This document shows, in pieces, positions 19,853-31,631 of a stretch of DNA of 38,757 bases. The translations under genes were made by a program, and so were the position numbers. The notes below the pieces were generated by a model. It was not told the DNA's origin and ran no database searches. It was given only the letters and a program-made list of their open reading frames with translations. Within the stretch, counting starts at the first letter, position 1. Every line of letters begins with the position of its first letter. The stretch comes from Halobacteriales archaeon SW_5_70_135 (GTDB lineage Archaea; Halobacteriota; Halobacteria; Halobacteriales; SW-7-71-33), in contig PXSK01000022.1 of assembly GCA_003022865.1 (NCBI GenBank), forward strand, positions 1 to 38,757. The letters are read 5' to 3'.

Positions 19853-20674
19853 ATGCTCGCCTTCGTCGGGCTGGGGCTGTACGACGAGCGCTCGATCACC
19901 GTCGAGGGGCGTCGCACCGTCGAGCGCGCCGACCGCGTGTTCGCCGAGCTGTACACGACGCGGCTGGCCGGCGCGACCGTCGCCGACCTGGAGACCTTTC
20001 ACGACGTCTCGGTCGAGCGCCGGTCCCGCGAGGGCATCGAGCGCGACCCCGGACCCGTCCTGGCGGCCGCCGCCGGGGGCACGGCCGTGCTGCTGGTCGG
20101 TGGCGACCCGATGGTGTCGACCACCCACGTCGACCTGCGTCTGCGCGCCCACGAGCGGGAGATCGACACCCGGATCGTCCACGGCACCTCCGCGGCGACC
20201 GCCGCCGCCGGCCTCACCGGCCTGCAGAACTATCGCTTCGGCCCCGCGACGACGCTGCCGTTCCCCGACGCCCACGGGGTCGACGGGGTTCCGGGGAGCG
20301 TCCACGAGACGCTGGCGGCGAACCGCGACCGGGGGCTGCACACCCTGACCTATCTCGACGTGAAGGCCGCCGACGACCGCTACATGACCGCCGACCGCGC
20401 CGCCGACCTGCTGCTGGCGGCCTGGCACGAGCGGTCCTGGGGTGACGGATCGATCGACCGCCCGACGGGCGAGGCGGGGCCGCTGGCGGTCGCCGTCGCC
20501 CGCGCCGGCGCCGAGCGACCGACCGTCGTCGCCGACCGCCTGGCCGGGCTGGCCGACGGCGACTACGACTACGGCGACCCGCCACACCTGCTGGTGCTTC
20601 CCGGTGACCTGCACCACGTCGAGCGAGAGGCGCTGTCGGCGTTCGCCGGGGCGTCGGTGTCACTCCGGCGCTGA
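19853..20674 (+). CDS. dphB: Diphthine synthase
   Basis: The 273-aa protein is a tetrapyrrole-methylase-fold SAM enzyme with the full DphB signature: MLAFVGLGLYDERSITVEG, VFAELYTTRLAG, AVLLVGGDPMVSTTHVDL, VHGTSAATAAAGLTGLQNYR and TYLDVKAADDRYMT. It methylates the modified histidine of EF-2 during diphthamide synthesis; the EF-2 gene itself begins at 37959 in this window. A catttaggg box lies about 27 nt before ATG 19853. The last 15 bp overlap the converging artA gene. Confidence 0.95.
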   Translation: MLAFVGLGLYDERSITVEGRRTVERADRVFAELYTTRLAGATVADLETFHDVSVERRSREGIERDPGPVLAAAAGGTAVLLVGGDPMVSTTHVDLRLRAHEREIDTRIVHGTSAATAAAGLTGLQNYRFGPATTLPFPDAHGVDGVPGSVHETLAANRDRGLHTLTYLDVKAADDRYMTADRAADLLLAAWHERSWGDGSIDRPTGEAGPLAVAVARAGAERPTVVADRLAGLADGDYDYGDPPHLLVLPGDLHHVEREALSAFAGASVSLRR

Positions 20675-21655
20675 GTCGACGCCGCCGTCGGCCCGGAGTT
20701 CGGGCTCGGGACCGACGAATCCGTGGAGGTCGTACTCCCGGCGAGTGAGGACGTAGAGGGCGTCCTCGATGACCGCCAGCAGTTCCGGCAGTCGGGTGAC
20801 GACGAGCCAGGTGATCCCGACGAGGACGACCACCGAGGCGCTCTGGGCGATCACCCGGTCGGCGACGTAGTAGGAGACGAGCACGTCGCTCTCGACGGCG
20901 AACAGCGCGGCGACGACGTCGGGGAAGACGTGCAGACGCTGGGAGCCGAAGCTGACCGCGATGAAGACGACCCGGGCGAGGTTGAGCACGTAGACGATCG
21001 GCACCGAGACCGCGAGCGCCCGGAGCTTTCGCTCCAGCGGAGCGTCGACGGCGGCGACGAGCCCGGCGAAGACGGCGATACTGCCGATGCCGGAACAGGC
21101 CGTCTTCACCGTCAGCGTCAGCGGCTCGCCGTCCTCGGAGAACACGAGCGTGCTGCGGTAGGGGTACTCCTTGGTGGCGATCCGTGCGCCGTCGTAGGTG
21201 AGTCCGGAGACGACCTCGGGCTCCAGCCCGACGAGACGGACCAGGGCGGCGACCTGCACGGTGAGTGACTCGACCAGCGGCCGCCGGATCGCGCCGACGG
21301 CCTGTACCGGGAGGAACAACACGCCCGCGACGGCGACCGACCGCGAGAGGACGAACAGCGAGTCACGGCCACGGGCGAGCGAGACCGCCACGGAGGCACA
21401 GACCGGCACCGCAAGCAGCGTGCCGACCCCCTCGACGACGCTCTTCTGGACGAACGCGAAGTGGTGCACCGTCGACAGCCAGAACAGCCCGAACAGCAGC
21501 CACGCGCCGACCGCCAGCGGGCGTGCCGGGTCGCGGTCCCGACGCTCGACGAGCGCCGCCGCGAGAAAGGCACCGACCACGAGCCAGGCCAGCGGGTCGG
21601 AGAGCCGACCCAGGGCGGCGAGCGCGTCCACGACCGCCGTCAGCGGGTCCGTCAC
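20660..21655 (-). CDS. artA: Archaeosortase A
   Basis: The 331-aa polytopic membrane protein is an exosortase-fold transpeptidase. The catalytic residues are Cys187 (VKTACSGIGSI), Arg228 (LNLARVVFI) and Arg267 (YYVADRVIA). Their spacing (41 and 39 residues) equals that of Cys173/Arg214/Arg253 in Haloferax volcanii ArtA. ArtA cleaves PGF-CTERM tails of surface proteins and couples them to lipid. A clear substrate lies 1.6 kb upstream on the same strand (23299-26031). GTG 21655 is preferred: a gttatttac box (21679-21687) is about 29 nt upstream. A hydrophilic C-terminal tail of about 40 residues follows the last helix. Confidence 0.93.
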   Translation of the reverse strand: MTDPLTAVVDALAALGRLSDPLAWLVVGAFLAAALVERRDRDPARPLAVGAWLLFGLFWLSTVHHFAFVQKSVVEGVGTLLAVPVCASVAVSLARGRDSLFVLSRSVAVAGVLFLPVQAVGAIRRPLVESLTVQVAALVRLVGLEPEVVSGLTYDGARIATKEYPYRSTLVFSEDGEPLTLTVKTACSGIGSIAVFAGLVAAVDAPLERKLRALAVSVPIVYVLNLARVVFIAVSFGSQRLHVFPDVVAALFAVESDVLVSYYVADRVIAQSASVVVLVGITWLVVTRLPELLAVIEDALYVLTRREYDLHGFVGPEPELRADGGVDSAPE

Positions 21656-21678
21656 GTCGCCGGATACGGCCGTTCGCG

Positions 21679-21687
21679 GTAAATAAC
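21679..21687 (-). promoter_or_regulatory. TATA-like box of artA
   Basis: On the minus strand GTTATTTAC is centred about 28 nt upstream of GTG 21655. This indicates artA can be transcribed separately from the HTTM gene just upstream. Confidence 0.5.
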
Positions 21688-21731
21688 TTGTTTCGTCCGT
21701 GCTCCTCGCCCGTATCGCCCGTCTCCGTCGG

Positions 21732-23243
21732 TCAGGGACAGGCCTGTGCGTGCAGTCGCTCTCGCCGGACCGACTCCGAACCGTCGAGGTCGGTCGGCTC
21801 CGCCATGAAGTACACTGTCACGTCCTCGAGTGCGGCGTCGTGGCGCCGCGTCCACCGCCGACAGAGACGGTCGCCGAAGGCCGGTCGCAGTTCGGCGTTG
21901 TCCGGCGCTCGCAGGTTGAGCAGATACCGCATCCAGCGGTGTGACGGGTAGGCGTCCGCGAGGTCGGGCGGGCGGTCGAACGTCAGCGGCCGGTCGCCGA
22001 GCGGGTCGACCCGCTCTCCCGCCGCGGTCTCCCCGGCGGCGACGAACCAGCCGTCCGTCCGCCGGGGCGAGGCGAACATGTCCCAGCGGTACTCCTCGCT
22101 GGCGTCCGCGACCGTCGCGGACGGCACGTCGACGGCACCCAGCGTCACCGCGTTCCACGCGACGACGAAGACGAGCGCCGCCAGGGCGACGGCCGTGACC
22201 ACGCCGCGTCGCCGGGACCTCCGGCCGGATCCGAATCGGTCGGAGCCCGACGGGCGAGCCGACGCCGTCACGGGCGCGTCGACTGTCGTCTCGACCCGGT
22301 CCCAGACCGACGGCGGGAGGAAAGGGACGAGCGCGGCGAGCGAGATCAGCGGGAAGACCCCCAGTCGCATCGTCAGAAACATCGAGAGGTGCGCTCCCGC
22401 GAAGGCACAGACCAACGCCGTCCGACGTCGCCCGGTGAGCGCGACGAGTCCGACCGAGCCGAACAGCAGTCCCAGCCAGACCGGCTCGACGACCCCGAGC
22501 AGCACCGGCCGCGTCGCCAGCGCGTCCCCCAGCAGGACCGTGAGCTGGTCCAGGCTGAACACGTACTCGAGTGCCACGCCCTGCGTCCACGCGTCCGAGC
22601 GTAGCTTGAACAGTCCGTTGACGAGGTACACCGCGACCACCTGGAGGAGCAGTCCGGCCGACGCGACGGTGACGACCGGCGCTCGCCGGGGACGGTCGTC
22701 GGTCGCCTCGCGTCGCAGCGCGTCGAGCGACCAGCACGAGCCGAGCGGGAGCAGGGTCCCCCACAGGAGCAGCCGTCGGAGGACGCTGTCGCCACCGTTG
22801 AGCAACAGCGGATTCCGGGCGTGAAGCGACGCCAGCAGCACCAGCGACACCACGGTCGCGAGACGGGTGCGGTAGCCGACGGCGAGCGCGGCGGCCGCCA
22901 GCCCCGCGAGGACGAACAGTGCCGCGGTCGAGCGGGGACTGCCCGCGAGCGCGTACACGGACAGCCGCGACAGCACCGGATACGTGGAGTGCAGCGCGGC
23001 CCGCGGGAGTACCCCGACGTCGGTGTAGAACGTCCGCAGCTGTCGGGCCCGGAGCGCCAGGTCGACCAGAAGCAGCGTCCCGACGGCGACACGCAGTGCC
23101 GCCAGGCCGCGCGGGTCGACGCCGAGTCGCTCGACGACGGCCGTCTGGAGCCATCGTGGCACGACGCGGGACCGGAACACGGCCACACCTCGTCGGGCAC
23201 GCGAAAAAGCCCTCCGCCGGAGTGGCGACCGCGGCACTGTCAC
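21732..23243 (-). CDS. HTTM-domain multi-pass membrane protein
   Basis: The 503-aa protein matches the HTTM domain related to vitamin-K gamma-carboxylase. Features are an N-terminal GLAALRVAVGTLLLVDLALR helix, FYTDVGVLPRAAL, HARNPLLLNGGDSVLRRLLL, and a CWSLDAL segment, then paired helices (VVAVYLVNGLFKLRSDAWTQ, followed by LEYVFSLDQLT). A periplasm-facing C-terminal domain (EYRWDMFASPRRTDGWFVAA) ends the protein. Haloarchaeal HTTM proteins have no settled function. Proximity to artA and two secreted glycoproteins suggests modification or export of surface material, but this is inference. Start GTG 23243 is tentative; GTG 23237 is equally possible. Confidence 0.75.
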   Translation of the reverse strand: MTVPRSPLRRRAFSRARRGVAVFRSRVVPRWLQTAVVERLGVDPRGLAALRVAVGTLLLVDLALRARQLRTFYTDVGVLPRAALHSTYPVLSRLSVYALAGSPRSTAALFVLAGLAAAALAVGYRTRLATVVSLVLLASLHARNPLLLNGGDSVLRRLLLWGTLLPLGSCWSLDALRREATDDRPRRAPVVTVASAGLLLQVVAVYLVNGLFKLRSDAWTQGVALEYVFSLDQLTVLLGDALATRPVLLGVVEPVWLGLLFGSVGLVALTGRRRTALVCAFAGAHLSMFLTMRLGVFPLISLAALVPFLPPSVWDRVETTVDAPVTASARPSGSDRFGSGRRSRRRGVVTAVALAALVFVVAWNAVTLGAVDVPSATVADASEEYRWDMFASPRRTDGWFVAAGETAAGERVDPLGDRPLTFDRPPDLADAYPSHRWMRYLLNLRAPDNAELRPAFGDRLCRRWTRRHDAALEDVTVYFMAEPTDLDGSESVRRERLHAQACP

Positions 23244-23250
23244 TGGCGGG

Positions 23251-23265
23251 GAGATAATAGAGAAG
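23251..23265 (-). terminator. Pyrimidine/AT-rich terminator candidate after the PGF-CTERM gene
   Basis: On the minus strand CTTCTCTATTATCTC begins about 34 nt after the stop codon at 23299. A nearly identical CTTCTCTATTTATTC follows the next surface gene upstream. The tattat core also sits just ahead of the HTTM gene and may act as its TATA box. Confidence 0.35.
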
Positions 23266-23298
23266 TGAGACCGGCGAGAGCCGGGTGGTCAGTCGTCG

Positions 23299-26031
23299 TT
23301 ACTCGTCGCGACGCCGGGTGGCCAGCAGCGCGGCGGCCAGCAGCGCGATGAGCGCGACTGCGACGCCGAAGCCGGGCGAATCGCCACCCTCAGTGGTGGT
23401 GGTCTCCGTCGTGGTCGTCGGCGTCGGCGTTTCGGTCGTCGGTGTCGGCGTCGACGTCGTGGTCGTCGGCGTCGGCGTCGACGTCGTGGTCGTCGGTGTC
23501 GGCGTCGGCACCGTCACCTCACCCTGGGAGATGACAGGGCTGCCGTCCACGACGTACGGACCGTCGGCGGCACCTCCCGAAGTGACGAAGTCGTAGACGT
23601 TGTTACCGTTGGTGTCCAGGTGAGCCATCGCGATGATGGTGCTGGTACCGCCCTGGAAGCCGCCGTCCAGCGCGATCTGGATGTCGTTCACCTGACCGGG
23701 ACCGAAGTACTTCGAGGTCCCGCGGACGCTCTCGATGACTGCACCGTCCTGCAGGGTGCTGTCGTGGACGGTGACGAACCCGCCCTTGGGCAGGAACGCG
23801 CTGACACCGGTGATGAGCCGACCGTCCGCGTTGATCGACGCGCCGCTCGCGTCGACGTTGGCCGGCTCGGTCACCACGCCGCTCTCGCTGGCGCGAGTGA
23901 CACCGCCCTCGCGGACGGTCACGCTGATGGACTGCCCGGCCACGCCGTCGGACAGGTCGAAGTCGACGGCGAAGGTGCCGTTCTCGACCTCGACCTGCTG
24001 GGACTCCAGGATCGGGTTCTCCTGGTTGGTCGAGCGGATCGTGACCGTCAGCGTGGTGCCGTCGGCCACCGTGGTCGTGCCGCTGACCGTGGCTTCGGAG
24101 ATCCGCTGCAGGCGCAGTTCGTCACTCGGCACGTCGAGCGACGCCGAGCGCTGCCGGAACGTCACCGACTGCGTCGCTTCGACGTCCTCGGTGAAGTACG
24201 GGTTGGCGCCGGAGTCGATGCTGAACGTAACGTCGTAGGTCGAGCCGATCTCGAACTCGTTGGTCGTGCCGATCAGCAGGAGCTGGTCGTCGTCGTCGCT
24301 GGCGCGCAGCTCCAGGTTGCTGACGTCGACCTCGTCGGCCAGCTCGTTGTCTTGGAGACTGGACTCGGTGATGCTGATGTCGACGCCCTGTGCGGGGGGG
24401 TCGCCCGAGTTATCGACGTAGCCGAAGACGCTCTGGATCCCGGAGACGCGGGCGACGACCTTGTCGCCGCTCGCGACCGACGACGCCGCGTTCGTGTTGT
24501 CGGTCGAGATGTCCTCGTTGTCGACCGTCCCCTGTGCGCGGCGGATCTCGAGGGTGACGTCGTCGCTGGGGTTCTGTAGGTTCACCGTTCCGACGTCGGT
24601 CTCACCGACGCCCTCCACCGTGACGTTCAGCGGGTAGCCGGCGTTGGTGAGACGGCGGTCGGCGTCGGAGAAGCCGCCGACGAGGCGCTCGGCGGTGACG
24701 CTGTCGTCGTTGTTGGCGACGTCGAACGTGGCGGTCTCGTCCTGACCGGCGCTGTCGGTGTTCCACTCGATGGTGACGACGTCGTCGTCGTTACCGTCCG
24801 TGACCTCGAGGCGGACCTCGTAGTTGACCTCCTCGCTGCCGAGGAAGACGGTCGCCTGGTCGGTGTTCTCCAGTTCGACCGGAATCTCGGCGACGTCACC
24901 GCGCTGCTCGCGCGTGATGACGGTGCCGAACTCGGCGTCACCGGCGACGGTGTCCTCGACGTTGACCGTGATGCTGTCGGAGACGCCGGTGTCGAACACC
25001 TCGAAGTTGATCGTGTACTCGCCCGCGCTGACGCCGCCGAAGTCGGCCTCGACGACGTCCTGGATTGAGCCGCCGGTAAGGACGACTTCGTTCTCGTCGT
25101 CACCGTCGGCGTCCTGGATGGACGCTTCGAGGTTGTCCGGCGGTGAGAGGAGACCCGCGAGGGTCTCCGCGTCGACGTCCGGCGACGAGAGAACGTGGAC
25201 GTAGCCGTTGCGGTTCGAGTCGACCGTGATCTCGGCCGACGAACCGTCACCGGCGTTCGTCACGTTCGCCGTGCCCGGGTTGACGCTGTAGTCCTGCTCG
25301 GCCAGCTCGAACTCGATGGTCGGACCGGTGGGGCTGGTCAGCTGGTAGTTGCCGGCCGACAGGCCCAGCTGGCCGGTGTCGATCGTAGCCGTGCCGTCGG
25401 TGACCTCGACGTCGCTCTCGAAGTTGCCGTCGCCGTCTTCGAGGCGGACGTTGTCGTTGCTGTCGTACGCGTCGGTCACCAGCGTCTGACCGACGAAGAA
25501 GGTACCACCGTCGACGAGCTGAGTGTTCTCGTCGAGGGGCTGCTCCTCCGGCGGCTCCGGCTCCGGCTCGCCTTCCTCGACGGTGAGCGTGCTCGTCACC
25601 GAGTCGGTGTCCTCGGACTGGCCCGCCTCCGCGAGCGCGGTCCAGCTGACGTCACCGGCCTCGGCGCTGTCGGGTACCTGGATGGTGAACGTCACCGTCG
25701 CGGTTTCACCAGCCGGAACTTGGAACTCGTCTGTCGCCAGCTGTGCCCGAGTGTTGTCGTCGCTGCTCGCGACGACGTCGCCGGAGACACCACTGACAGT
25801 ATAGCTGGACGGAAGCCCGTTCAGACTGACCGTCACGCCACCGTCTTCCTGAGTAACCTGTACGTCGTACGTAACCGTAACCTCACCGCCGGCAGCAGCC
25901 GACCCCGGTCCGTTTGTCTCCGTGATGTCCACCTGCTGGGACGCTTGCGCGGCCGCAGGTGCCACGAGGACGGACAGAACCATGATCGCTGCCAGTCCGA
26001 CGGCTGTGACCTTCTTGTGTGTTCCTCTCAT
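23299..26031 (-). CDS. PGF-CTERM surface glycoprotein
   Basis: The 910-aa secreted protein has a Sec signal peptide (VGLAAIMVLSVLVAPAAAQA), a long run of beta-sandwich-like domains, a segment GGTFFVGQTLVTDAYDSNDN like the N-terminal region of haloarchaeal S-layer glycoproteins, a later domain (SAFLPKGGFVTVHDSTLQDG), a Thr/Pro-rich linker and a C-terminal tripartite tail: SPGFG motif, hydrophobic helix, RRRDE. The tail marks it as an archaeosortase A substrate that becomes lipid-linked at the membrane. N-glycosylation sequons are present. Domain one might be an adhesion or cohesin-like fold, but I cannot confirm that. The gene shares its promoter and leader with the 1363-aa glycoprotein gene. 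Confidence 0.88.
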   Translation of the reverse strand: MRGTHKKVTAVGLAAIMVLSVLVAPAAAQASQQVDITETNGPGSAAAGGEVTVTYDVQVTQEDGGVTVSLNGLPSSYTVSGVSGDVVASSDDNTRAQLATDEFQVPAGETATVTFTIQVPDSAEAGDVSWTALAEAGQSEDTDSVTSTLTVEEGEPEPEPPEEQPLDENTQLVDGGTFFVGQTLVTDAYDSNDNVRLEDGDGNFESDVEVTDGTATIDTGQLGLSAGNYQLTSPTGPTIEFELAEQDYSVNPGTANVTNAGDGSSAEITVDSNRNGYVHVLSSPDVDAETLAGLLSPPDNLEASIQDADGDDENEVVLTGGSIQDVVEADFGGVSAGEYTINFEVFDTGVSDSITVNVEDTVAGDAEFGTVITREQRGDVAEIPVELENTDQATVFLGSEEVNYEVRLEVTDGNDDDVVTIEWNTDSAGQDETATFDVANNDDSVTAERLVGGFSDADRRLTNAGYPLNVTVEGVGETDVGTVNLQNPSDDVTLEIRRAQGTVDNEDISTDNTNAASSVASGDKVVARVSGIQSVFGYVDNSGDPPAQGVDISITESSLQDNELADEVDVSNLELRASDDDDQLLLIGTTNEFEIGSTYDVTFSIDSGANPYFTEDVEATQSVTFRQRSASLDVPSDELRLQRISEATVSGTTTVADGTTLTVTIRSTNQENPILESQQVEVENGTFAVDFDLSDGVAGQSISVTVREGGVTRASESGVVTEPANVDASGASINADGRLITGVSAFLPKGGFVTVHDSTLQDGAVIESVRGTSKYFGPGQVNDIQIALDGGFQGGTSTIIAMAHLDTNGNNVYDFVTSGGAADGPYVVDGSPVISQGEVTVPTPTPTTTTSTPTPTTTTSTPTPTTETPTPTTTTETTTTEGGDSPGFGVAVALIALLAAALLATRRRDE
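23435..23509. repeat. In-frame 27-bp tandem repeat coding for the Thr/Pro linker
   Basis: About three copies of a 27-bp unit encode TPTPTTTTS-type repeats in the stalk of the PGF-CTERM protein. The region is probably O-glycosylated and is likely to vary in copy number between strains. Confidence 0.75.
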
Positions 26032-26038
26032 AATCGGA

Positions 26039-26131
26039 TTAACTCCGTTGTTCGATGGCGATGCAGTGCGTGCGCGTCTCTTCGCGCACTCTCGTCGTAC
26101 GCTTTGTCCCCATCGATGCCTCAGCCTCCAT
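26039..26131 (-). CDS. Upstream leader ORF 1 (30 codons) of the PGF-CTERM gene
   Basis: ATG 26131 starts a 30-aa frame, MEAEASMGTKRTTRVREE and onward, ending in TAA 7 nt before the start of the main gene. Its first 12 nt (ATGGAGGCTGAG) are identical to those of two other leaders in this window. The stop next to the main start would suit translational coupling. The alternative is that only the 12-nt RNA motif matters and the open frame is chance. Confidence 0.4.
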   Translation of the reverse strand: MEAEASMGTKRTTRVREETRTHCIAIEQRS

Positions 26132-26165
26132 GGGCGTGTGTCACATCAGTACCCTCTCCTGCGAC

Positions 26166-26184
26166 ATTTAAATATTTTCTGTAA
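26166..26184 (-). promoter_or_regulatory. Shared promoter core, copy 1
   Basis: On the minus strand TTACAGAAAATATTTAAAT is a strong BRE/TATA-type element, identical over 19 nt to the element at 30627-30645. It ends 34 nt before the ATGGAGGCTGAG motif and implies a 5' leader of roughly 110 nt on the PGF-CTERM mRNA. The upstream motif GTCTGACG occurs at about 26207-26214, and the 12-nt form (+ strand ccgtcagacgac) at 26254-26265. Confidence 0.75.
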
Positions 26185-26350
26185 GAGGCTTTCATGGACG
26201 ACAGCGTCAGACGGCACGAGCGGCGCCCAGAGCGGCGATACGCTCGATCGTGACCGTCAGACGACTCGACCCGAACAGCCACCCTCACTCGGGGGCCACG
26301 CTCTGAACATCGAACGTAATCAAATGAGGAACGGCGCCGCTGCTGTCCGG

Positions 26351-26366
26351 GTGAATAAATAGAGAA
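26351..26366 (-). terminator. AT/pyrimidine-rich terminator candidate after the 1363-aa glycoprotein gene
   Basis: On the minus strand TTCTCTATTTATTCAC lies about 20-35 nt after the stop codon at 26385. It resembles the tract that follows the PGF-CTERM gene. Archaeal termination favours such T-rich tracts without a hairpin. Confidence 0.4.
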
Positions 26367-26384
26367 GCCGCGAGTGTGGGCAGC

Positions 26385-29300
26385 TCAGTTGGAGCCGGAG
26401 CTGGGCCACTGACCGTCGCCGTTGTACGCCTGGATGACGTCCGTCACCGTACCGAACTCCGTGATACGGTCGTCGCTGTCGTCGTTGTAGGCGTTGATCA
26501 CCGCCACGACCTCGTTGAAGTCGATCTCGCCGTTGACTTCGCCACCGTTGGCGCCGTCGAACTGCGACTCGAGGTCGCTGGAGGTCTGTTCCTCGATGGT
26601 GATCGCCTGCTGGTCGATCTCACCGGCCACCTGGGTCAGCACCGCCAGCAGCTGGTCACCGGTCTCCCGGTTATCCGACACGTTAATCGAGACGGTGACG
26701 TCCTTGGTCTCGCCCGGACCCAGGGTCACCGACCCCGTACCGTTCCGTGCCGTCGTGCCGCCACGCAGCTCGACGGACAGCGCGCGGTCCACAGGGGTGA
26801 CGACGTTGTTGTTCTGCAGTTCGACCTCGACGTCGATCTGCTCGCCCTGCTCGGCCGTCTGGGGTGTTTCGTTTTCGACGATGCTCACGTCGACACCCAG
26901 CGGCTCGGCGAACGGAATCACGACGCTGGCCTCCTGGGTCCGGTTGGGCCGGACGCCCTCCGCGATGGAGTCACCCGCGCCGTCGAAGTCCGTGTTCGCC
27001 GGGCTGATCTGCACTCCGCGCACTGTCTCGTAGGTCGCACCGACCGGGGTGCCGCTGCGGTCGGCGGGCACCCGCGGCAGCGTGTACTGCCCCGAAGCCG
27101 ACGGCGCCGAGAACGTCAGCAGCGTTAGCCCCAGGTTCGCCGCCGGCGGTTCCAGCGACACTGTGGGGAGTCCGTCTGCCTCGGTCAGGCCGTTCGAGGC
27201 GTTCACGTTGAGTTCGGTCTCGACGCTGAACCGCCGGTCGACCGCTTCCTCGGTCAAGTCGTAGCCCTTCCGCTCGATGGACCGCCCGGTGGGGCCCGTG
27301 ATGACCCAGGTAGCGTTCAGCACGTCCAGCGGCTCGTCGGCGTTCGCCAGCGCGCTGGAGTCGTTGGGCTCCAGGGTGAGCTGCTGGCCCTCGACGGTGA
27401 ACTCCTCGGTGTACACCGTCGTACTGGGCAGCGGCTGGTTCTCGTTGTCGGTGACGATGCCGGACAGCGAGCCGGTCTCGTTGATGATCACCGTCCGCAC
27501 GAACGTTGCGTTCGAGCTGTCGGTGGCCGTCACGTCGTCCCGCACCTGTGCCGTCTTGTTGACACGCACGGTCTCGGTGGTGCTCGGAGTGGGGAAGTAC
27601 ACCAGGAAGGCGGTGCCCTCGCTGGCGCCGAAGGCGGTAGTGTCATTGCTCGTGTCGATGATGATCTGGTCCTCGTTGCTCGACACGTCGTCGACCACCG
27701 AGCCGCCGATGACCGTCACGAACTCGCCCGTGATGTTGTCGTCGTTCGCGTTGGCGAACCGGGCGTCGTCGTACTCCTCGAGTTCGACGATGACCTCACC
27801 GCCGACGTTGCCTTCGGAGTCGGCAGTGTCGATGCGGATGATGTCGTACGTCTGGTTGTCACGCGCGGTCGCCTGGAACTCCGAGTCGCCAGGCTCCTCG
27901 TTGACCTCGTCGAACCGGTTGACGAGCGACGGGTCCGGCGCCGTCTTCGGATGCGTGCCCACCTGCGTGATGTTCACGCGGTCGGGGCGACGCGGCACTG
28001 GCTCCAGGTTGAAGTCCACCGTGGACTGGTTCTCCGTGCCGACGAGTTCGCCGTCCTCGTTGACGTACACGTCAGCGAAGTCCCTGTCGAAGCCGGTCTT
28101 CGTGGCGATCGCCACGTACGCACGGCCGTCCTGGAAGTCGCTGGGCAGCCGGTTCAGCTTGTACTCGCCGATCTCGTTGGTGCCGCCGGTGTTCTCGCCG
28201 TAGCTGTTGATCCAGCCGGGCGAGTCCACCGGGTTCGCACCGCGGACCGACCCGTTGTCGGTGGCGTTTGCACGCTCTTCGGTCGCCGCAAGCGTCAGGT
28301 TCGCCGTCGCATTGTAGACCTCCGGATCACCGGACCCAGTGGCGATCGGGTCGCGGGAGGTGACGTTGCGGAAGTTCTCGGAGCCGCCGTCGGCGACGCG
28401 CTGGTCGCTGGCGTTGCCGGCGTCCAGCGAGAGCTGCACGTAGTACTCCTCGGGCTCCAGCCGCGTGTGGTTGAACGCGATGCGATCGTTGTCGGTCGCG
28501 TCGATGACGGCATAGCCCGAGCCCTTCGTCACGTTGCTGGCGTTCAGCTGTTCGACCTTCCGGATGTTGGTCGTGACCTCACCGAGGCGTTCGACATCGT
28601 CCTCGGTGTCACGCGCCACACGGAGGTCGTACTCGTCGTTGTCGATGATCTGGCCGGTGTCGTTGTCGACCAGCCGGATGAAGACCGTGTCGTCGTCTTC
28701 CGAGGTGAAGTTGTAGTCGTACTTCGTGTTCGCCGCGTACCGGTCTCCGAGGACGGCGTAGACGGAGGCGTCCTCGACCGGGTCAGTCGTCGCGTCGTTG
28801 ATGACGCTACCCTGGATCGAGCCCTCGCCGCTGGAGACGAAGGACTTCGTCGCGTTCGTCGTCGGGTTCTCACCACTGTCGTTGATCGCCTCGAACTCGA
28901 TGTTCGAGGTCACCACGGTGTCGCTGGTGACCACGAAGACGGCCTGACCGTTCTGGTCGGTGACCGCCGTCGAGTTGTCACCGTCGCCGTCCACGCTGGT
29001 GTCCGGCGTGGGGAGGAACTCGATGTCGGATTCCTCGGCGGTCGCGTTGACCGCGACGTCCTCGAGCCTCTCATCGTTCTGGTCGGTGACCGTCACCGTG
29101 AACGTGTTGTTCTGGCCGACGAGCGCGGAGTCCCGCTTGGGGTCAACCTCGATTTCGACCGGGACGCGCAGGGGGTCGAGCAGGAAGTCCTGCGTCGTCG
29201 TCTTGTTGTTCTCGATCCCCGACTCTTCGCCGACGTCGACCGTGAAGCCGGGCTTGGTCGCCCGGAACTCGTAGCTGTTCGACGCCGCCGGCAGCGTGCG

Positions 29301-30476
29301 CGCGCTCGGCGGACCGAAGTTGTACCGACCGTTCGGCGCCGTGCTGACGTTCTGCCGGTAGGTACCGGACTGCAGGACTGCGGTGACCGTCGCGTTCTCG
29401 ATCTCGTTGTTGCTGGAGTCGGTCACCTCGCCCGTCAGCGAACCGGTCCGGTTCGCGCTACGCTGGGTCGTCAGCGTGTCGTACTGGAAGACCGAGTTGT
29501 TGACCTGCGTCGTCAGGAGCGCGTCGATCGTATCGGAGTCGTCGATCTGGTCGACGTTCTCGTTGAGCGAGACGCGGGCGACGACCGTCTTGACATTGGA
29601 GACGTTGCTCCCGAAGTCGACCGTCGCGTTGGTATTGCCGCCCTGGTACGGGACCCTTTCGCTTTCGAGACGCGTGTTATTGTTGTCGAAGAGCGTGACC
29701 CTCAGCGCCGTCACGGCCTCGGGGTCGACGTCTCCCTGGGTCCCGCCGCTGACGTCGGCCGAGACGTTCCGGACCTTACCGGGCGTGCCGAAGCTGACGT
29801 TCGCCACTTCGACCGAACCGCCGGCCGCGAACGGCGAACTCTGCGTGTTGTCAGTGCTGCCGCGCGGCAGCGGGTCTTCGGCCGGTTCCTGGACGTTCGC
29901 CTCGCTGCCGTTCGTGGAGTCGAACGTCCGGTCGTTGATCGCCACCGGCTCGAACCGGGCATTCTGTCTCTCACCGCTCGAGTCGTCGTACGTCACGTTG
30001 ACGCTGAGGTTCCCGGAGTTGTTGGCGTACGTCACCGTTGTGTCGACGCCGAAGCTGGTCGCGTTGGGTCCGGCGTCTCCCAGCTCGAACCTCAGTGTGT
30101 CGTCGTTACCGTCGTTGTCCGGTCCGTCGACGACTTGGATGCTCTCTTCGATGACGCCGTCGGAGTCGTTGGTCAGCGCCGTGTTCGGCGAGAGACTGCC
30201 GACGACGATGTCGCTCTCGTTGAACTCGACGAACGCAGTGTCGGCGTCACCGTCCTCCGAGGTGTTGACCGCGAACCGGAGCTGCTGGTTTTCGACCGTG
30301 TCTTCCGTTCCGACACTGTTCGGCGTCGCGTCGACGAACGAGATAGGGCCGACATTGCCGACGTTGCCCGCCTGTGCGGCCGCCGTCCCGCCGAGCGCGA
30401 CGACGCCGACGAACATCGACGTCACCATCAGTACGGAGAACACTAGCGATCCGAGTTTCTCTACACTACGACTCAT
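26385..30476 (-). CDS. Giant secreted surface glycoprotein with dockerin-like C-terminus
   Basis: The 1363-aa acidic protein has a Sec signal (FSVLMVTSMFVGVVALGGTA), more than thirty apparent N-X-S/T sequons, two carboxypeptidase-regulatory-like domains (SLTGEVTDSSNNEIENATVT; SLSGIVTDNENQPLPSTTVY), an Ig-like bacterial-type domain (VGQNNTFTVTVTDQNDERLE), and a CARDB-like stretch (QGEQIDVEVELQNNNVV). The last 64 residues form a dockerin-like pair: IDFNEVVAVINAYN and ITEFGTVTDVIQAYN. There is no PGF-CTERM tail or C-terminal membrane helix, so it must attach non-covalently or be released. It is transcribed in the same direction as the PGF-CTERM gene from a matching promoter. A Shine-Dalgarno-like GAGGTGATC precedes the start. 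Confidence 0.85.
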   Translation of the reverse strand: MSRSVEKLGSLVFSVLMVTSMFVGVVALGGTAAAQAGNVGNVGPISFVDATPNSVGTEDTVENQQLRFAVNTSEDGDADTAFVEFNESDIVVGSLSPNTALTNDSDGVIEESIQVVDGPDNDGNDDTLRFELGDAGPNATSFGVDTTVTYANNSGNLSVNVTYDDSSGERQNARFEPVAINDRTFDSTNGSEANVQEPAEDPLPRGSTDNTQSSPFAAGGSVEVANVSFGTPGKVRNVSADVSGGTQGDVDPEAVTALRVTLFDNNNTRLESERVPYQGGNTNATVDFGSNVSNVKTVVARVSLNENVDQIDDSDTIDALLTTQVNNSVFQYDTLTTQRSANRTGSLTGEVTDSSNNEIENATVTAVLQSGTYRQNVSTAPNGRYNFGPPSARTLPAASNSYEFRATKPGFTVDVGEESGIENNKTTTQDFLLDPLRVPVEIEVDPKRDSALVGQNNTFTVTVTDQNDERLEDVAVNATAEESDIEFLPTPDTSVDGDGDNSTAVTDQNGQAVFVVTSDTVVTSNIEFEAINDSGENPTTNATKSFVSSGEGSIQGSVINDATTDPVEDASVYAVLGDRYAANTKYDYNFTSEDDDTVFIRLVDNDTGQIIDNDEYDLRVARDTEDDVERLGEVTTNIRKVEQLNASNVTKGSGYAVIDATDNDRIAFNHTRLEPEEYYVQLSLDAGNASDQRVADGGSENFRNVTSRDPIATGSGDPEVYNATANLTLAATEERANATDNGSVRGANPVDSPGWINSYGENTGGTNEIGEYKLNRLPSDFQDGRAYVAIATKTGFDRDFADVYVNEDGELVGTENQSTVDFNLEPVPRRPDRVNITQVGTHPKTAPDPSLVNRFDEVNEEPGDSEFQATARDNQTYDIIRIDTADSEGNVGGEVIVELEEYDDARFANANDDNITGEFVTVIGGSVVDDVSSNEDQIIIDTSNDTTAFGASEGTAFLVYFPTPSTTETVRVNKTAQVRDDVTATDSSNATFVRTVIINETGSLSGIVTDNENQPLPSTTVYTEEFTVEGQQLTLEPNDSSALANADEPLDVLNATWVITGPTGRSIERKGYDLTEEAVDRRFSVETELNVNASNGLTEADGLPTVSLEPPAANLGLTLLTFSAPSASGQYTLPRVPADRSGTPVGATYETVRGVQISPANTDFDGAGDSIAEGVRPNRTQEASVVIPFAEPLGVDVSIVENETPQTAEQGEQIDVEVELQNNNVVTPVDRALSVELRGGTTARNGTGSVTLGPGETKDVTVSINVSDNRETGDQLLAVLTQVAGEIDQQAITIEEQTSSDLESQFDGANGGEVNGEIDFNEVVAVINAYNDDSDDRITEFGTVTDVIQAYNGDGQWPSSGSN

Positions 30477-30483
30477 GTTGTCC

Positions 30484-30492
30484 GATCACCTC
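30484..30492 (-). promoter_or_regulatory. Shine-Dalgarno site of the 1363-aa glycoprotein gene
   Basis: GAGGTGATC on the minus strand is complementary to the archaeal 16S rRNA 3' end and sits 7 nt before ATG 30476. It is unusual here because most genes in the window look leaderless. It agrees with a long leader transcript. Confidence 0.6.
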
Positions 30493-30512
30493 TGTTGTGT
30501 GTTGTTGGGGGA

Positions 30513-30593
30513 TCATCTGTACCACGCGGACGAAATTCCACGTGTACGACGCTTCTCGCGGTTGAATTTTCCATGTTCTGTCTCAGCCTCCAT
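30513..30593 (-). CDS. Upstream leader ORF 2 (26 codons) of the glycoprotein gene
   Basis: ATG 30593 begins a 26-aa frame, MEAETEHGKFNREKRRTR and onward, ending in TGA 36 nt before the main start. It is Arg/Lys-rich like leader ORFs 1 and 3 and shares the first 13 nt (ATGGAGGCTGAGA) with leader 3. It lies 33 nt after the shared promoter core. Whether it is translated is unknown. Confidence 0.4.
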   Translation of the reverse strand: MEAETEHGKFNREKRRTRGISSAWYR

Positions 30594-30626
30594 TAGGCGA
30601 GGTCACAGTTGTGCCTCACATGCATG

Positions 30627-30645
30627 ATTTAAATATTTTCTGTAA
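30627..30645 (-). promoter_or_regulatory. Shared promoter core, copy 2
   Basis: On the minus strand TTACAGAAAATATTTAAAT is identical to copy 1 at 26166-26184. Directly upstream is GTCGTCTGACGG (30646-30657), a 12-nt element also found at 26254-26265. The predicted leader of the glycoprotein mRNA is about 125 nt. Confidence 0.75.
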
Positions 30646-30882
30646 CCGTCAGACGACCCGAAGGGCGGCTCAGCGGGCAGTAGCGGAGCGCTCAAGCCGC
30701 CGCAGCGTCCTGGCCTTGACATGCGTTACCACCGTTTCGTCGGACGGGGGGTATCCGCCCGACGGACGTGTGTGCCGCTGCGCCCGGTCGGCAGCGGCAG
30801 TGAAACCAGCGGACCACCGTGTTTCAGACGGGAGCGACCCGGCCGGCGGACACTTGTCCGTCGACTCCGAACGGGGACCACC

Positions 30883-31410
30883 CATGCCGGAGTCACAGGA
30901 CGTGACGACTCGTCGTCTCTCTCCGGGCACCGCCACCTGATCGCGGTCGTCCTCGTCGCCGTCGGGACCGACGCGTAGTCGACGATCGACGTGGCGGTGC
31001 TCGGCACGGGCGTCGACACGACCATCCGCGACTGGAGGGCGCGCTCGCCGGGGTGTGAACACGACGGGCGAGGAGACGACGTACGGGCTGTCGACCGCCG
31101 AGGACGGCGTCGGCCACGGCACCTTCGTTACGGGGATCGCCGCCGCCGGGGACGACACCGGACCCGTCGGCGTCTCGCGTGGCGTTGACCTGTACGCGGT
31201 GAAGGTGCTAGATAGCGATCGGGGCAAACTCAGCGACCTCGTCGAGGGGATCGACGCTATCGTCGCATCGAGGGAGCCGGTGACGTCCGACGACCTGGTC
31301 GCCGCCATCCAGCACTACGACACCGGAGCGACCGTCCCGGCACGGACGAGCAGGTCACGGTCCAAGACGTCGTCGACCTGATCGGGCGGTACAACGCCCG
31401 GTCCCGCTGA
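30883..31410 (+). pseudogene. Decayed subtilisin-like (S8) serine protease with dockerin-like tail
   Basis: Pieces of a secreted subtilase lie in two frames. A start (MPESQDVTTRRLSPG) and a signal-like LIAVVLVAVG are followed by IDVAVLGTGVD, where the catalytic Asp of the usual DTGVD has become Gly. After a shift comes DGVGHGTFVTGIAAAGDDTG with the catalytic His, then VDLYAVKVLDSDRGKLSDLV. The Asn and Ser motifs are missing, so a large internal deletion is likely. The tail VTSDDLVAAIQHYDTGATVP, then after another shift VTVQDVVDLIGRYN, is a dockerin-like repeat pair similar to that of the neighbouring 1363-aa glycoprotein. The product cannot be an active protease. Confidence 0.65.
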
Positions 31411-31483
31411 GGCCCGTACGGCGGCGTGATCCTCCGAGCGACCCGACGCCGTCAAGCGACGTGCGGTAGTCCGGGACGAACAT

Positions 31484-31567
31484 TTATGTCCGTGTAGCAG
31501 TTACTGATCGATATCGCCCGGTTCGGAGGCGGTCGAGAAGTATCCGACCAAGTGTCTCAGCCTCCAT
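31484..31567 (-). other. Orphan leader ORF 3 (MEAE type)
   Basis: ATG 31567 begins with the same 13 nt as leader 2 (ATGGAGGCTGAGA) and encodes 27 residues (MEAETLGRILLDRLRTGRYR and onward) to a TAA. No surface-protein gene follows on this strand. The converging subtilase remnant lies there instead. GTCTGACGG occurs about 77 nt upstream, but the 19-nt promoter core is missing. It looks like the remains of a third copy of the leader module. Nothing else is evident in the 31411-31774 gap. Confidence 0.4.
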
Positions 31568-31631
31568 CGTGGCCGTCAAGGCCACGAATTCTACACTTGC
31601 ATCGTCCCACATGCTTTGTGAAACAGCACGG

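Follow-up and report, generated by a model that had tools for sequence, protein, structure and literature searches.

A conserved promoter and leader with a short reading frame ending at the start codon of haloarchaeal surface-layer genes: a candidate case of termination-reinitiation

Haloarchaeal walls consist mainly of the surface-layer (S-layer) glycoprotein, the control of whose very high synthesis has, to our knowledge, not been worked out. In Haloferax volcanii, most transcripts are leaderless, the highly expressed ones especially, and structured leaders have been judged not typical (PMC4983044). Among the closest described systems are the coupled genes of this same species: (i) overlapping gene pairs are strictly coupled (Huber et al., 2019, PMC6728339); and (ii) in three native pairs, reinitiation drops to 40-60% of the native level at a distance of +13/14 nt, is abolished at +22 nt in one pair and is near zero at +23 nt in two (Huber et al., 2023, PMC10666635). 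The present work deals with a promoter and leader common to two surface-glycoprotein genes of the salt-loving Halobacteriales archaeon SW_5_70_135, both located on contig PXSK01000022.1 within a stretch of 38,757 nt (hereafter, the window; the whole assembly amounts to 1.77 Mb). In general terms, what these genes share is probably a conserved promoter and a structured leader whose short open reading frame (ORF) feeds the S-layer start codon by termination-reinitiation.

The two genes are encoded on the minus strand. The first (23299-26031) codes for a 910-aa PGF-CTERM S-layer glycoprotein, recognised by its domain matches (BGTF, DUF7282 and PGF-CTERM domains, together with a partial match to the model of ArtA-dependent S-layer glycoproteins) and by 44% identity over ~700 aa to a protein of Halobacteriales archaeon QS_8_69_26 (hereafter, G001), the sole other genome of the family available for comparison. 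The second (26385-30476) codes for a 1363-aa surface glycoprotein with a CarboxypepD_reg domain and with homologues in G001 (35% identity) and Halorientalis persicus (28% identity). The two proteins differ in their domains, in agreement with an earlier note on this DNA which took the coding regions to be unrelated.

Upstream, both genes carry the same promoter core, TTACAGAAAATATTTAAAT, which comprises a B recognition element (BRE) and a TATA box, at 26166-26184 (910-aa gene) and 30627-30645 (1363-aa gene) of the minus strand. As the earlier note had it, these two 19-nt copies are identical; no other site in the window matches them, even with 3 mismatches (expected number, 0.00). The exact 19-mer also precedes a surface-protein gene of H. 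persicus, and G001 preserves 18 of the 19 positions. The elements of a haloarchaeal basal promoter, in which the TATA box is expected ~26 nt before the start, are thus present, and the predicted transcription start, from TATA spacing, would lie at 26144 for the 910-aa gene (~25 nt past the TATA centre) and at 30605 for the 1363-aa gene, both on the minus strand. This geometry is supported by the nearly constant distance between the TATA box and the 5' box in the S-layer leaders of the order (class A, see below).

The second shared element is the leader box ATGGAGGCTGAG, which begins, just as described before, 34 nt past the core in the 910-aa gene (26120-26131, minus strand) and 33 nt past it in the 1363-aa gene (30582-30593, minus strand), and which holds a Shine-Dalgarno (SD)-like GGAGG at 26125-26129 and 30587-30591, respectively. 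A third exact copy is found at 31556-31567. The GGAGG motif may be an SD box; the anti-SD 19-mer was not found in these assemblies. The leader box is not a random dispersed repeat, a possibility the earlier note had itself raised, as the 12-mer occurs four times in the whole assembly: three times at this locus and once inside what appears, by context, to be coding DNA. ATGGAGGCTGAG was also considered as a general marker in relatives and rejected, since most of its matches in 59 relatives lie inside coding DNA, again by context. A search of the window against Rfam returned tRNA only, with no riboswitch or other Rfam leader family.

Two sets of short frames can be differentiated downstream: (i) the ATG of the box itself opens the MEAE-type frames already described, of 30, 26 and 27 codons, the first two of which stop 7 and 36 nt before the main starts; and (ii) a second ATG, located 11 nt (910-aa gene) or 12 nt (1363-aa gene) past GGAGG, opens frames that end at the main start in both genes. 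In the first set, the 26-codon frame of the 1363-aa gene (30513-30593, minus strand) is not a conserved ORF and, at +36, falls outside the coupling range, because H. volcanii shows practically no reinitiation at +22/23 nt already (PMC10666635). The second set consists of MGTKRTTRVREETRTHCIAIEQRS, with 24 codons (26039-26113, minus strand), which is in frame with the 30-codon MEAE ORF (26039-26131) and stops 7 nt before the 910-aa ATG; and MENSTARSVVHVEFRPRGTDDPPTTHNRGDRTT, with 33 codons (30473-30574, minus strand), whose TGA overlaps the ATGA of the 1363-aa main start by 4 nt. The latter ORF, which had been missed in the earlier note, runs from 30574 to 30473 in a frame other than that of the 26-codon MEAE ORF and includes an SD-like GAGGTGATC, as read from the sequence, at 30484-30492 (minus strand), 7 nt before the main start.

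Leaders of the window type, here called class B, amount to five copies in three genomes. The search of related genomes that had been proposed was carried out with a promoter-plus-box pattern over a public genome set, and yielded two haloarchaeal matches, in G001 and H. persicus, each ahead of the above-mentioned homologue of the 1363-aa protein. A second copy on the same H. persicus contig precedes a different protein with a signal peptide, and consists of the identical 19-mer plus GGAGGCTGAGACAGA (GGAGGCTGAGACA), with ATA instead of ATG; in the other four leaders, once aligned, ATGGAGG is invariant. The idea of a common control device for cell-surface proteins is thus supported, inasmuch as the same promoter and leader stand before homologous or signal-peptide surface proteins in two other genomes. 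Between genomes, conservation is highest in the promoter core and the leader box is kept, the DNA between them not being kept.

An ATG located 11-14 nt past GGAGG is present in all five class B leaders. The ORFs that it opens have 24 (910-aa gene), 33 (1363-aa gene), 29 (G001), 23 (first H. persicus copy) and 9 codons (second H. persicus copy), and, counted from the main ATG, end in this same order at +7, -4, +3, +7 and +27 nt. If a pair is regarded as a candidate for coupling when the upstream stop overlaps the downstream start or lies at most ~13 nt from it, four of the class B leaders qualify; in 4 of the 5, an ORF of 23-33 codons has its stop at -4 to +10 nt relative to the main start, versus 1.02 ± 0.87 in dinucleotide shuffles (P = 0.0035). 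With respect to the predicted transcription start, the MEAE AUG lies at +11 to +14 in the four leaders having it, and the start-reaching ORF begins at +28 to +32. The MEAE frame reads MEAEKVDD-stop in H. persicus and MEVNNTA-stop in G001 (7-8 codons), and lacks a start in the second H. persicus copy. In G001, the ATGA that closes this frame also opens the second ORF, and an 8-nt overlap joins the two frames in H. persicus; such overlaps between successive frames, as read from the sequence, hint at a chain of reinitiations. A leaderless GTG mini-ORF at the predicted start, ending in ...GGA GGC TGA, was considered and set aside: it is open in three of the five leaders, has CTG in the fourth and is broken in H. 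persicus.

Neither the 388 genomes of the order nor eight further Halorientalis genomes yielded another class B example when searched with a sequence model of the leader; in consequence, the class B leader is rare and patchy, and it has possibly been transferred. In H. persicus, the class B promoter of the second surface-protein gene is preceded, at a distance of ~70 nt, by a second promoter-like element, CACAGAAAGTATTTAATA (L220:50-140). The 910-aa protein has a G001 homologue whose gene carries a class A-like promoter, CACAAAGCATTTACC (L057:6500-6800), versus the class B promoter of the window, a difference which indicates promoter or leader replacement within the family.

Class A was found from the regions upstream of S-layer genes in other families. 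It has the same geometry in another spelling and stands before S-layer genes across the order, and in this respect the notion of a shared control unit has gained ground. Its layout consists of the promoter CACAAAGCATTTATA, ~24 nt, and the 5' box GTACCCCTACCC, usually followed by ATGG; this array mostly lies 138-168 nt ahead of starts of the type MTGxxxKxRSLFLTALMVxSVFAG. A first class A pattern matched 54 of 295 genomes and a second one 85 of 388, a reversed control pattern matching none; neither of the two matches in the window's genome. The promoter-box spacing is nearly constant, although the pattern allowed a wider range.

The 92 distinct class A leaders were reduced to 44 below 75% identity. 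An upstream ATG (uATG) is found in 35 of these 44 diverged leaders, a share biased upward by the second pattern, which required ATGG. Despite varying leader lengths, the distance from the uATG to the main start is 2 mod 3 in 25 of the 35 (P = 5e-6), and in 32 of them the stop of the upstream ORF falls in the stretch that extends from 20 nt ahead of the start to a few nt inside the gene. Upstream ORFs of at least 15 codons ending at -4 to +10 nt occur in 28 of the 44 leaders (7.0 ± 2.4 when shuffled) and the exact 4-nt overlap (ATGA, -4) in 21 of the 44 (5.0 ± 2.1 in shuffles, none of 300 reaching 21). When 20 S-layer loci were picked by protein similarity alone, all 20 had an ACCCCT(A/G)C-type 5' box and 8 had an ATG directly after it, with seven of these eight ORFs ending at most 12 nt from the start. 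In two sister species of H. volcanii (L222 and L223, S-layer N-terminus 84-86% identical), the 5' box is GTACCCCTGCCC, with ATCC for ATGG and no leader ORF there. Exact matches to the class A leader box were not found in viral contigs. In the open literature searched, which did not cover the classical csg papers, neither the S-layer leader ORF nor the TACCCCTACCC box was found described, so part of the class A leader may have been mentioned earlier.

Class A leaders also hold a stem, formed by the 8 nt that follow AU (GGUGACAG) and by CUGUCGCC, close to the leader end. This stem was first seen by eye and then tested, the pair counts therefore not being blind: its cells are paired in 87% of cases, versus 79.4 ± 0.9% with shuffled partners and 20-61% when slid by 1-4 columns, and six pair types are found at one of its positions. 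To judge from the aligned leaders, this 8-bp stem covaries. RNAalifold, applied to the MAFFT alignment, gave no structure by itself. The conserved AGUA and GAA beside the stem would fit a loop-E-type module. As far as class B is concerned, single-sequence folds place stems after the second AUG in 2 of 4 leaders, with a best z-score of -1.9, none being significantly stable in this small set.

From the promoter, the box, the ORF geometry and the order-wide design, all of them obtained by comparison, we infer a course of events which extends from transcription start to purpose. Both genes would be transcribed from a strong S-layer-type promoter into an mRNA leader of ~113-129 nt, carrying the conserved box AUGGAGGCUGAG near its 5' end and then, 11-12 nt past GGAGG, the AUG of the short ORF (24 and 33 codons). 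Ribosomes would load near the 5' end, translate this mini-ORF up to its stop, which lies 7 nt before the main start or overlaps it as AUGA, and reinitiate at the S-layer start codon. The sequence of the peptide would be free to drift, with start, frame and stop being kept, and the purpose might be to produce coat proteins in high and matched amounts from mRNAs with a leader. The conserved leader ORFs (four of the five in class B) are within the coupling range of H. volcanii, and reinitiation would be the most economical mechanism. The leader element also has a function of its own, independent of the ORF, as indicated by the lineages that retain the box without the ATG. Leader translation, as proposed in the earlier note, has in this way received comparative support with regard to the ORF, whereas the MEAE peptide is not supported as the conserved unit: among the class B leaders compared, the peptides of the leader ORFs are unrelated to one another, and neither a conserved peptide nor regulatory codons were found.

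Several observations weigh against this course of events: (i) H. volcanii uses no SD motifs for initiation in 5' untranslated regions (PMC3986360) and, as they are not needed there, GGAGG possibly does not act as an SD box; (ii) the second H. persicus class B leader has only the 9-codon ORF which, ending 27 nt upstream, is beyond the coupling distance; (iii) many class A lineages, two sister species of H. volcanii among them, lack the AUG (AAGG, ACGG, AGGG, ATCC), and hence the leader ORF is not essential; (iv) the third-position excess in class A ORFs is weak (99:149:179), third positions varying most, so that the peptide would be under little constraint; and (v) leaders of related species are not independent samples.

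The first alternative takes the conserved unit to be a non-coding promoter plus a structured RNA leader (acting on stability, at the 5' end or through protein binding), with AUGs that are incidental and an ORF that is merely kept harmless by ending at the main start. In line with it, the box is retained after ATG loss, as ATAGGAGGCTGAGACAGA in H. persicus and as CCCAGGGTGACAGTA and CCCAAGGTGATACCAGCGAGTA in other lineages; the 5' box is present in all the protein-selected upstream regions, only 8 of the 20 having the ATG directly after it; and the covarying stem fits a structured RNA leader. Nevertheless, a non-coding leader alone fails to explain the 4-nt overlaps in 21 of 44 class A leaders or the ORFs in four of five class B leaders, except through harm avoidance, which itself needs an AUG used by ribosomes. 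This alternative is possible and, on balance, rather unlikely.

A second alternative, which appears improbable, attributes the shared sequence to a DNA-level operator or extended promoter, the leader being a bystander of duplication or gene conversion between neighbours. The promoter core is the most conserved stretch, and three copies of the palindrome CGTCAGACG are present in the window, all of them beside one or other of these two promoters: at 30647-30655 (1363-aa promoter) and at 26205-26213 and 26255-26263 (upstream of the 910-aa promoter). But the leader box, located downstream of the predicted start, is conserved between genomes, unlike the DNA that separates it from the promoter, and a recent conversion within the window's genome cannot account for H. 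persicus and G001. As for the palindrome itself, three copies are a chance number for the window overall, but all of them are located at most ~80 nt upstream of the two promoters; GTCAGACG adjoins the G001 promoter, and a degenerate copy is found near the third box (31556-31567). CGTCAGACG is a possible regulator site.

Finally, regulation of the downstream gene by an MEAE-type leader peptide, or by ribosome stalling on it, is hardly credible: the window has three frames that begin with MEAE and H. persicus has one, and the class A uATG stands at a similar place (~+13), but frame loss has already largely refuted this idea, as two relatives have only the 7-8-codon frames given above, the second H. 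persicus leader has ATA for ATG, another ORF reaches the 1363-aa start, substitutions within the G001 box alter the peptide and class A peptides are diverse.

The third copy of ATGGAGGCTGAG (31556-31567, minus strand) had been described as an orphan leader. Rather than a leader in use, it probably represents the decayed remains of an S-layer promoter and leader: CACAAAGCATGTG, at 31608-31620, 40 nt before the box, corresponds to the class A promoter with its TATA replaced (sole match in the window, none expected), the match to the leader model is weak (E 0.16), and no surface-protein gene follows. Close by, on the plus strand, 30930-31400 holds a subtilase gene fragment with broken frames (Peptidase_S8 match within 31055-31381), an apparent pseudogene next to the S-layer cluster. 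On the other side, the archaeosortase A gene artA (20660-21655) is found two genes beyond the 910-aa S-layer gene. It lies close to the gene of its presumed substrate, the PGF-CTERM S-layer glycoprotein (20660-26031 altogether, minus strand), with a 500-aa protein without family matches (21652-23154) between them.

The leaderless rule has an exception in S-layer genes, which are preceded by a conserved leader that combines a stem showing covariation with a start-coupled ORF, and the shared design suggests that synthesis of the cell coat is tied to the translation of a throw-away mini-gene. A broader claim, for and against which we consider the case evenly balanced, is that haloarchaea express their most abundant envelope protein via a conserved structured leader with an obligatory mini-ORF followed by reinitiation, a control or dosage device kept across an order of mostly leaderless mRNAs, of which the window would offer a second spelling common to two coat genes.

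Four known systems can be compared with this locus. The coupled pairs of haloarchaea (Huber et al., 2019, PMC6728339; 2023, PMC10666635) resemble it in that the stop and the start share 4 nt or are separated by at most ~7 nt, within the range measured in H. volcanii; but the upstream partner is here a leader ORF of 23-54 codons with little peptide conservation instead of a protein-coding neighbour. Bacterial leader-peptide attenuators and uORF-coupled riboswitch leaders likewise have a short ORF in the leader of the regulated gene, while here there are no conserved regulatory codons or peptide and no Rfam family, and coupling would depend on the position of stop and start. The SD box of the H. 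volcanii sod leader, GGAGGUUA (PMC3986360), is identical in the G001 box, the window having GGAGGCUGA; the spacing to the AUG is here 11-14 nt, and the sod box is dispensable for initiation. The class A csg leader, for its part, shares with the window its place before S-layer genes, the TATA-to-ATGG spacing, the length of the leader and an ORF that stops at the main start, whereas the window has the promoter TTACAGAAAATATTTAAAT and the box ATGGAGGCTGAG, has no GTACCCCTACCC, and starts its leader ORF one AUG later.

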